From Pseudofrankia inefficax (GTDB lineage Bacteria; Actinomycetota; Actinomycetes; Frankiales; Frankiaceae), in the NCBI RefSeq assembly GCF_000166135.1, contig NC_014666.1, positions 2,294,001-2,358,000 on the forward strand: 64,000 nucleotides of DNA, given 5' to 3'. Below the pieces are notes generated by a model. It did no database searches and was not told the DNA's origin. It worked only from the letters and a program-made list of their open reading frames with translations. Below are positions 27,309-28,487 of the stretch, in pieces. A program made the position numbers and the translations under genes. The first letter of the stretch is position 1. Each line of letters begins with the position of its first letter.

Positions 27309-28487
27309 TCAAGCCGGGGGGTGGTGCCGCCCGCCGGCCGGTTGGGGGTACCGCGCCGGTTCGGAGAATCCAGTCGGGATGGCGTTCGCTGGGGTTGCAC
27401 CTGGCGTGGCGGTGGCTAGGGTACCGCCGTCGCCCTTGCCATTTCGGCCGTTCCCGTTGGCGCTCTGGCTGCCCTGACTGTTCCCGTTCCCCTGAGCGTT
27501 TTGGCTGTTGCTGTTGCTGTTTTGGCCGGTGGCAGTGGCGTTTTGACCGTTCCCGTTCCCGTTGCCGCTCTGGCTGCCGTTCCCGTTCCCGTTGGCGTTT
27601 TGGCTGGTGGCAGTGGTGTTTTGGCCGTTGCCGTTGCCGTTGCCGTTGCCGTTGCCGTTGCCCTGGCCGTTTCCGTTTCCGTTTCCGTTGGCGTTGCCGT
27701 TCTGGCTGCCCTGGCTGTTGCCGTTGCCGTTCTGCCTGGCCGGGTACGCCGGGGCAGCCGTCGGCGTCGCGGTGGCGGGCGGCGTGCCACAGTCCGTGGC
27801 CGTCGTGCCCGGGTCGCCGGTGATCAACCGGGGTGAATCGAGGCCGTCCATCGGCTTGCCGGGCTTCGGGGGCTTCTTGCTCGAGGAGGAGGCACAGAGA
27901 GGATCATGCGCGGCTGGCGCGGGTTCCGGAGTGGCCGGACCGATCGACTGTGGCCAAAGCCGCGTACCGGCGGTGGTCATGAGGTCAGCCCCGTAGCTCG
28001 ACGGGGTGCTGGCGCGGTGGGATGGGGAGCCGCTGAACGGGACGGGAAGGGAGTCGGTGGCCATGGCGACCCCGCCGGCACCGGCCACCGCGGCCGCGGT
28101 GACGGCGGCCGCCAGAGCCCGCGTCGCCCGGCGCCTGGTCGCCAGCGCCGTGCCGGCCAGGGCGGTACCGGTCGACGTGATCCTGGGTAACGGGTGGACG
28201 GACGCTACGGCTGACCGCCGATATGCGGCTACCGCGGCCTCCTCGCCGGCGAGATCTTTCCCTTGTGCCGCCTCGGCCGTGACCGCGAGCAGATCCACGC
28301 GAAACTCATCGAGGGAACCGGCGATCCGTGGCCACAGCCGGGCCGCTGCCTGTGCCACCTCGGTCTCGTCATCCTCGTCGCCGCTGAGTTGCTGCAGGGA
28401 ATGGATCAATCGCGGCTGGACGGCGCGGTAAAGATGCCGAAACGCCTCCTCGTCGCCGCGCCGTGCCGCCGCGATGGTATGCCGCAA
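27309..28487 (-). CDS. Membrane-anchored sigma-region-2-like protein with Asn-Gly repeat tail
   Basis: A 392-residue protein. Residues 1-60 (AARRGDEEAFRHLYRAVQP and onward) look like region 2 of ECF sigma factors. No region 4 DNA-binding domain follows. Instead there is a linker, one membrane helix near 125-148 (RALAAAVTAAAVAGAGG), a Pro/Ser-rich stretch and then, about 250-350, a low-complexity array of Asn-Gly, Gln-Asn and Asn-Ser units. The tail would be outside the cell. The start is TTG 28487 (no ATG or GTG earlier in frame), which is uncertain. It lies 51 bp downstream of the HTH/TPR gene, likely co-transcribed. Function unknown; a membrane-tethered sigma or anti-sigma-like device is inferred. 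Confidence 0.65.
   Translation of the reverse strand: MRHTIAAARRGDEEAFRHLYRAVQPRLIHSLQQLSGDEDDETEVAQAAARLWPRIAGSLDEFRVDLLAVTAEAAQGKDLAGEEAAVAAYRRSAVASVHPLPRITSTGTALAGTALATRRRATRALAAAVTAAAVAGAGGVAMATDSLPVPFSGSPSHRASTPSSYGADLMTTAGTRLWPQSIGPATPEPAPAAHDPLCASSSSKKPPKPGKPMDGLDSPRLITGDPGTTATDCGTPPATATPTAAPAYPARQNGNGNSQGSQNGNANGNGNGNGQGNGNGNGNGNGNGQNTTATSQNANGNGNGSQSGNGNGNGQNATATGQNSNSNSQNAQGNGNSQGSQSANGNGRNGKGDGGTLATATPGATPANAIPTGFSEPARYPQPAGGRHHPPA
27440..27745. repeat. Asn-Gly coding microsatellite-like array
   Basis: On the minus strand GGCAAC-type hexamers encode runs of Gly-Asn interrupted by Gln-Asn, Ser-Gln-Gly and Thr-Ala-Thr. The longest uninterrupted GCCGTT run on the plus strand is at about 27625-27660. 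Such arrays are prone to length change. Confidence 0.8.

Follow-up and report, generated by a model that had tools for sequence, protein, structure and literature searches.

An ECF sigma gene and a membrane anti-sigma-type gene apparently joined by deletion in Frankiaceae

The locus and its upstream neighbour

We analysed a 64,000-nucleotide stretch of the Pseudofrankia inefficax genome (contig NC_014666.1, positions 2,294,001 to 2,358,000), hereafter the window. On its minus strand, positions 27309-28487 form an open frame of 392 codons. The features of the locus are listed in Table 1. Residues are numbered either from the proposed ATT start or from a TTG at 28487-28485, which would give a protein of 392 residues. 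For instance, the sigma match covers residues 15-78 in ATT numbering and approximately residues 1-63 in TTG numbering.

Table 1. Features of the fusion locus in the window
Feature	Position	Strand	Basis and remarks
NsdA-family TPR-like regulator gene	28539..30170	-	Directly upstream, same frame; NF053720 match; start approximate
Shine-Dalgarno-like AAGGTGGTGA	28539..28548	-	AAGGYGGTGA in 4/4 nsd-linked copies; overlaps nsd stop codon
Fusion gene	27309..28532	-	Proposed CDS, 407 aa from ATT 28532-28530; inferred
ECF sigma regions 2.1-2.2	28299..28490	-	ATT residues 15-78; relatives' alignment, profile, structure comparison
5-residue insert in region 2.2	28350..28364	-	Placement approximate; alignment; common to all six fusions
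Fusion junction, codons 63/64 (TTG numbering)	28298..28299	-	Non-fusion junction-profile matches start at column 24 or 25; alignment
Membrane-proximal cytosolic helix LAGEEAAVAAYRRS, partner-derived	28212..28253	-	Alignment, AlphaFold helix 97-112, profile
Predicted membrane helix	28059..28115	-	ATT residues 140-158; hydropathy 1.81; AlphaFold helix 127-152, low confidence
Exterior segment between cysteines 213 and 248	27789..27896	-	Remnant of partner's LC...YC domain; alignment
Asn/Gly/Gln repeat tail	27426..27735	-	About 103 residues; sequence and tandem-repeat reading

The first-pass annotation placed this gene 51 bp behind an HTH/TPR regulator. The TPR part of that description is borne out, as the upstream protein matches the NsdA-family model NF053720 of NCBIfam with 328 bits (cut-off 75). 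The distance is correct for a TTG start. However, TTG is kept in only two of the six known copies of the fusion (the other four have CTA or CTC), and its use as the start is therefore doubtful. In all four copies linked to an NsdA-family gene (nsd), AAGGYGGTGA is followed after 6 nt by ATT or ATC, 15 codons ahead of the common Leu codon. The start in the window is probably of this AUU/AUC type, with ATT at 28532, 6 nt past the nsd stop. In genomes G017 and G021, an ATG precedes the same Leu codon by 14 codons, and the DNA alignment leaves this ATG and the ATT/ATC unpaired. ATG, GTG and TTG are all absent between the upstream stop and the sigma part in G029, and the candidate alternative start in G030 is a TTG located five codons inside the sigma part. 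AUU/AUC starts are generally weak. Positions 28530-28548 of the window, a strong Shine-Dalgarno sequence over the nsd stop followed by a conserved ATT/ATC, mark a possible non-AUG start in four genomes.

The two genes share a frame in the window. Readthrough or frameshifting from nsd into the fusion gene was rejected, because G030 and G029 carry additional stops between the two frames, the nsd frame ending 21 nt earlier in the former and 78 nt earlier in the latter. The fusion frame is open in all six genomes and complete in four; the G017 copy runs off its contig, and the G029 copy has an assembly gap in the tail.

At E<=1e-60, 33 of 35 Frankiaceae genomes have at least one nsd copy. A second copy, found in the window genome at G000:C1:1238469-1239902, is present only in G000, G029, G030 and G033, which are the genomes with nsd-linked fusions; the other 29 genomes with a match have one. 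In the window's genus, all four fusion copies follow a duplicated NsdA-family gene. No related nsd gene lies alongside the G017 and G021 fusions, and the link therefore holds in four of the six fusions only. Further along the window, at 30680-32485, a gene for a Penicillinase_R (BlaI-type) repressor is followed by a gene for an M48-type peptidase, in which an M56 match is sub-threshold.

The two halves of the protein and their junction

The relation of the N-terminus to sigma factors became clear only through genome relatives, and not through direct family searches. The window protein has no Pfam match, either to region 2 or to region 4. NCBIfam finds sigma region 2 at E=0.0012 only (residues 4-52), and a profile of the six fusions found no sigma factor among PDB sequences. 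When the first 178 residues were searched against the 35 Frankiaceae genomes, residues 1-66 matched ECF genes, and residues about 51-174 matched the gene directly behind in the same genomes. Outside the full-length copies, the short matches place residues about 4-66 on one gene and, in many genomes, residues about 46-174 on the next. In Pseudofrankia BMG5.36 (locus L110), which carries an intact pair, the sigma factor is a complete ECF (Sigma70_r2, E=6.5e-13; Sigma70_r4_2, E=6.7e-9), the best NCBIfam match of which, ShbA, is below cut-off. The product of the matched second gene crosses the membrane with one helix; its cytosolic part is short, and its exterior carries two cysteines, followed by a low-complexity tail.

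Profiles were built for both halves from non-fusion loci. The ECF profile derives from the best 80 of 146 loci, 78 of which are non-fusion; L145 (from an Acidobacteria bin) and the duplicates L136 and L151 were omitted, leaving 75 sigma2 fragments. For the partner profile, 39 motif-matching non-duplicates were reduced to 37 by omitting L097 and L110. These two Frankiaceae loci account for 2 of the 75 rows of the ECF profile, and Frankiaceae contribute none of the 37 rows of the partner profile. The ECF profile scores 53.7 bits on the window protein (residues 15-78, ATT numbering) and 53.7-60.8 bits over the fusions, against at most 12.6 for 3000 shuffles (500 of each of the six). The partner profile scores 27.2 bits at 80-160 of the window protein, against at most 9.3 for shuffles, and the window and G033 copies are the weakest-scoring pair of the six. 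A single partner sequence used as the query did not recover these two copies at E<=0.001. Since both halves match adjacent genes, align with them end to end and beat shuffled controls, the alignments show the gene as a deletion fusion of a neighbouring ECF sigma gene and a membrane anti-sigma-type gene.

The sigma alignment stops at 'FR.D', the end of region 2.2, and the sequence passes from there into the partner. Regions 2.1-2.2 alone represent the sigma2 domain. The stretch FRGW.ATIARHRALD.LRRR.RR (regions 2.3-2.4) is absent, as are sigma4 and the first ~30 residues of the partner, including its N-terminal aERLLrG helix. Partner alignment resumes at 'D.L...APAR..ELAGEEAAVAAFR', and the window protein has both the LLaaaAPAr.ELaGEeAAvaAFR helix and the membrane helix of the partner family. 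Thus, the region-2-like start and the missing region 4 that had been read from the sequence both hold up, as does the view that the architecture is neither that of a normal sigma factor nor that of a normal anti-sigma factor. That earlier reading overlooked that the segment after the sigma piece is, by alignment, the body of the sigma factor's own downstream membrane partner: from residue 64 (TTG numbering), the protein aligns as the partner's proximal helix, membrane helix, two-cysteine exterior and low-complexity tail.

All six fusions carry a 5-residue insert in region 2.2, and RNA polymerase binding may therefore be lost. The insert occurs in none of the 75 ECF fragments, 73 of which have one length and 2 of which are one residue longer. 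Alongside it, the acidic residues near region 2.2 are retained (5-8 in 15 residues).

A 62-column profile of the junction was searched against 393 genomes of the class. Full-length matches were obtained in the six fusions only, and the other 14 matches listed (12 further genomes plus G030 and G021) start at column 24 or 25, on the partner side. Among 396 genomes of the phylum, only the window's own crosses the junction, and one other genome matches the partner side. These searches scored the best 16 candidates per genome, so that distant fusions could be missed; an earlier class search with an alignment profile had scored the best 12, hence the use of the junction profile.

The single membrane helix that had been proposed is supported by prediction. 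The best 19-residue Kyte-Doolittle window is modest and Ala-rich (1.81), and four Lys/Arg residues lie in the 15 residues before the helix, against one in the 15 after it. The exterior Cys pair is found in all six fusions and in all five Frankiaceae partners examined. Among 20 wider partners, 14 have the pair, 4 do not, and the sequences of 2 end ahead of it; it is common, not universal. The repeat exterior of about 100 Asn/Gly/Gln residues described in the first-pass annotation is also real, but its suggested role in sensing the wall finds no support: tail composition varies among relatives (Asn/Gly, Pro/Gly or Pro/Ala/Lys) and changes fast (dN/dS 0.66, see below), and it is the cytosolic part and the Cys pair that are kept instead. 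The other role suggested there, to hold RNA polymerase or an anti-sigma factor at the membrane, may still apply. At 27496-27731 the tail DNA consists of tandem repeats, with periods of 6, 30 and 78 bases among them. Such repeats may explain the quick change of the tail between strains.

Members of the partner family, exemplified by L110:1930-2577, are one-helix membrane proteins encoded directly behind an ECF gene in many Actinobacteria. With the partner profile (E<1e-3), a partner adjoins the ECF gene in 70 of the 78 named non-fusion loci (from the best 80 of 146); the contig ends in 7, and 1 is marginal. The exterior domain often reads 'LC.aY....LvtAAGG.dkV..YC'. When 20 partners were compared with Pfam and NCBIfam, the weak matches were scattered, none was above cut-off and none was to an anti-sigma family; nothing significant was found for the same 20 among PDB sequences. 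In the predicted structure of one intact partner, three helices lie in the cytosol ahead of a membrane helix, and the exterior forms a confidently predicted helical domain; no fold match was found for this model. According to the alignment, the Cys pair and the membrane helix survive in the fusions, together with the third cytosolic helix and a portion of the second. The partner may be an anti-sigma factor, the helix of which would cover sigma2; both suggestions come from position and analogy only.

Distribution, conservation and predicted structure

Fusion copies are present in 6 of the 35 Frankiaceae genomes, namely the window genome (G000), G033 (92% identity to the window copy), G030 (50%), G029 (49%), G017 (47%) and G021 (45%). 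An assembly artefact is ruled out by the presence of the fusion in six genomes, the other five copies being 40-92% identical to that of the window. Frankia nepalensis CN7 (L077) and Parafrankia EUN1f (L078) carry the fusion. An intact ECF is found at E<=1e-20 in 14 of the 35 genomes, one of which (G016, 46%) has no partner match. A full-length partner is found in 13, in each case adjoining the ECF by coordinates. Overall, 13 genomes have the intact pair and 6 the fusion, 2 of these (G030 and G021) having both, and 18 have neither.

In a tree of the sigma half, the six fusions lie on one side of a branch with support of 100/99, in an alignment of 60 columns only. The tree of the partner half is unresolved: the fusions occur in two places among long branches and are not placed with the Frankiaceae pairs, and descent of the fusion from a Frankiaceae pair is not shown by this tree.

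Between the window and G033 copies, identity is 95.7% over residues 1-69. Over residues 16-165 (150 codons), dN/dS is 0.30 (binomial p=0.006), with the small numbers of 11 nonsynonymous and 14 synonymous changes. By segment, dN/dS is 0.34 for sigma2, 0.59 for the exterior and 0.66 for the tail, and it is 0.23 for nsd. The G017 and G021 copies are likewise constrained from sigma2 to the membrane helix (p=0.036). Since its codons evolve under constraint (dN/dS 0.30), the fusion seems to be kept by selection.

AlphaFold modelling of the window protein with its relatives (an alignment of 56 rows, in which partner fragments were trimmed) gave a mean pLDDT of 72.5 and a pTM of 0.56. Ten-residue pLDDT means lie between 84 and 93 for model residues 11-80. 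Helices are predicted at 13-24, 28-50 and 56-72 in the sigma part and at 97-112 in the partner-derived part. In the VIA comparison of 145 chains, a list that cannot exclude other folds, the highest Z values belong to sigmaE of E. coli (6.3), SigW (5.9) and SigC (5.9), and ShbA has 5.2. Of the top 12 rows, 9 are named sigma factors, with matches ending at model residues 84-86; helix 97-112 lies outside all sigma matches. The sigma2 values (Z 4.6-6.3) are below the 8 to 13 advised for helical models and serve as support only. Two unrelated-looking crosslinking models (Z 5.8 and 4.8) also appear in the list, as does one chain of 9n9q, an RNA-guided transcription complex (Z 4.8). With Foldseek alone, the best match in the PDB was region 2 of sigmaE at E 1.1, and none fell below E=1. 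In this model, the predicted structure resembles sigma2 domains. The proposed check of the sigma-2 relation by profile and structure thus came out in its favour, though plain Pfam, PDB-sequence and Foldseek searches did not reveal it.

Relation to known systems and possible roles

Fused ECF/anti-sigma proteins are known. Passages of PMC8999054 describe IutY/ECF243 and the actinobacterial ECF48, ECF52 (with SCO4117) and ECF53; sigma activity following proteolysis is shown for IutY and expected for the others. Earlier descriptions treat fusions of this kind as a way by which sigma factors become self-regulated. The window protein is similar in being a single polypeptide with an ECF sigma part followed by anti-sigma-type and membrane parts, and in occurring in Actinobacteria. 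In contrast, the complete sigma2 and sigma4 domains that precede the anti-sigma/membrane part in the IutY and ECF48/52/53 type are not found: the deletion has taken sigma4 as well as regions 2.3-2.4, and the boundary falls inside domain 2. On sequence grounds, the protein is a variant of the fused ECF/anti-sigma type and, because it has no sigma4, not an ECF sigma factor. Both halves are sequence relatives of the unfused actinobacterial ECF and its one-helix partner; however, that pair consists of two genes, with a complete sigma factor and a complete partner. We found no published description of the fusion protein in a literature search that covered few subscription journals.

RsoA of Bacillus subtilis, the partner of SigO, is not known to have a membrane part or an anti-sigma part, and contact between the two is reportedly mediated by region 2.3. 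The corresponding segment, by which a second subunit would be bound, is deleted from the window fusion. RsoA is otherwise similar in having a sigma2-type part and no sigma4, according to passages of PMC8103513. The same passages describe the sigma-like domain of PhyR as degenerate for promoter and polymerase contact, a further likeness, but PhyR is a response regulator in which this domain retains the ECF structure. Class I anti-sigma factors (ASDI) are also membrane proteins encoded behind an ECF gene, and the cytosolic part that precedes their membrane helix is likewise short and helical. The partner family differs from them in having no meaningful Pfam match and, in the one partner modelled, three predicted cytosolic helices instead of four.

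Promoter recognition and melting depend on the sigma regions that are deleted. The deletion that joined the ECF sigma gene to the anti-sigma-type gene took out sigma4 and regions 2.3-2.4 on one side and the first ~30 partner residues on the other. Both functions would have been lost with the sigma segments; because these are gone, the fusion alone could not be a working sigma factor. By sequence, helices 2.1-2.2 remain, now in one chain with the membrane-proximal helix of the former partner, its membrane helix and its Cys-paired exterior. According to passages of PMC7406223, the last cytosolic helix of class I anti-sigma factors binds sigma 2.1/2.2 and helices 1-3 bind sigma4, while the usual contact of ECF regions 2.1-2.2 is with the beta' clamp of RNA polymerase. 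If the partner works as a class I factor, sigma4 and its binding segment would have been deleted, and 2.1-2.2 and its binding helix kept; the partner-derived segment considered for this cis contact is the LAGEEAAVAAFR helix. The fused helix would mask the sigma2 fragment at the membrane; exposure or release would follow a signal, either from outside or proteolytic, and the freed fragment would occupy RNA polymerase or another anti-sigma factor, damping transcription. The AUU/AUC start behind nsd would keep the protein level low. On this reading, to which we give somewhat less than an even chance, the protein would be a DNA-blind sigma2 fragment held at the membrane, which the partner helix masks in cis and which competes for a sigma2-binding partner. 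That it is a natural membrane-tethered, DNA-blind sigma fragment acting as an unmasked, signal-controlled competitor at the polymerase clamp (or an anti-sigma factor), with low AUU/AUC expression coupled to the NsdA-type regulator, appears unlikely.

Several results tell against the reading of a fragment masked in cis. The insert in region 2.2 may have abolished the polymerase binding for which the fragment would compete. No Pfam or NCBIfam match of the partner family was accepted and none to PDB sequences was significant, and the partner half of the window protein is weakly scoring and, like that of G033, missed by a single partner query. The predicted masking helix belongs to no sigma match, in a model with a low pTM, low VIA scores and no significant Foldseek match. 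Moreover, four of the six fusion genomes have no intact pair, and hence no cognate partner for a decoy role, the nsd link is incomplete, and the partner-half tree does not group the fusions with the Frankiaceae pairs. A slowly decaying operon remnant without a function of its own, carried along with nsd, would fit the erosion of the exterior, of which a Cys pair and a repeat tail are left, the lack of a shared canonical start codon in the nsd-linked copies and the fast change of exterior and tail. Such a vestige is nevertheless improbable given a frame open in six genomes, a junction and Cys pair common to all of them, the near-identity of the first 69 residues between the window and G033 copies and the constraint found in both pairs of copies compared.

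The sigma-like domain of PhyR is a model for the titration of anti-sigma factors by mimicry. A mimic requires a sigma2 face in which the polymerase-binding segment is altered and DNA-reading parts are absent, and the fusion could titrate the anti-sigma factor of another ECF system, thereby freeing that sigma factor; G030 and G021 hold both fusion and intact pair, and PhyR offers a precedent for degenerate promoter and polymerase contact (passages of PMC8103513). However, the four fusion genomes without a related pair would need another target, and the fused helix may already sit on the sigma2 face, and a decoy is about as improbable as the vestige, these two being the main rivals. A two-part sigma factor is less probable still. 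Here, the sigma2 fragment would bind polymerase and the NsdA-family protein, an HTH protein according to the first-pass annotation, would read DNA, much as the sigma2-type protein RsoA acts together with a sigma4 protein that is separate from it (passages of PMC8103513). The genes are on the same strand and probably coupled, and no genome other than the four with this locus has a second nsd copy at E<=1e-60, but region 2.3 is missing, the G017 and G021 fusions have no related nsd gene as a neighbour and the protein sits in the membrane. The suspicion that the N-terminus only resembles sigma factors by chance could draw on the blank Pfam result, the PDB sequence search without a sigma factor and the non-significant Foldseek match; it is refuted by the profile scores against those of shuffles and is hardly conceivable, as the top VIA matches are mostly sigma2 domains and the partner half points to the same operon.

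If the reading of a masked, membrane-held fragment is true, the fusion lost the DNA-reading parts of a sigma factor yet the remainder was kept, and region 2.1-2.2 alone, anchored in the membrane, could regulate transcription. The study of the fusion also points to a conserved, unnamed family of membrane partners behind an actinobacterial ECF sigma factor. In genome G020, a 130-aa frame at C224:267044-267130 has a match only to the partner's exterior Cys domain (66% over 29 residues) and is possibly a free-standing copy of this domain.
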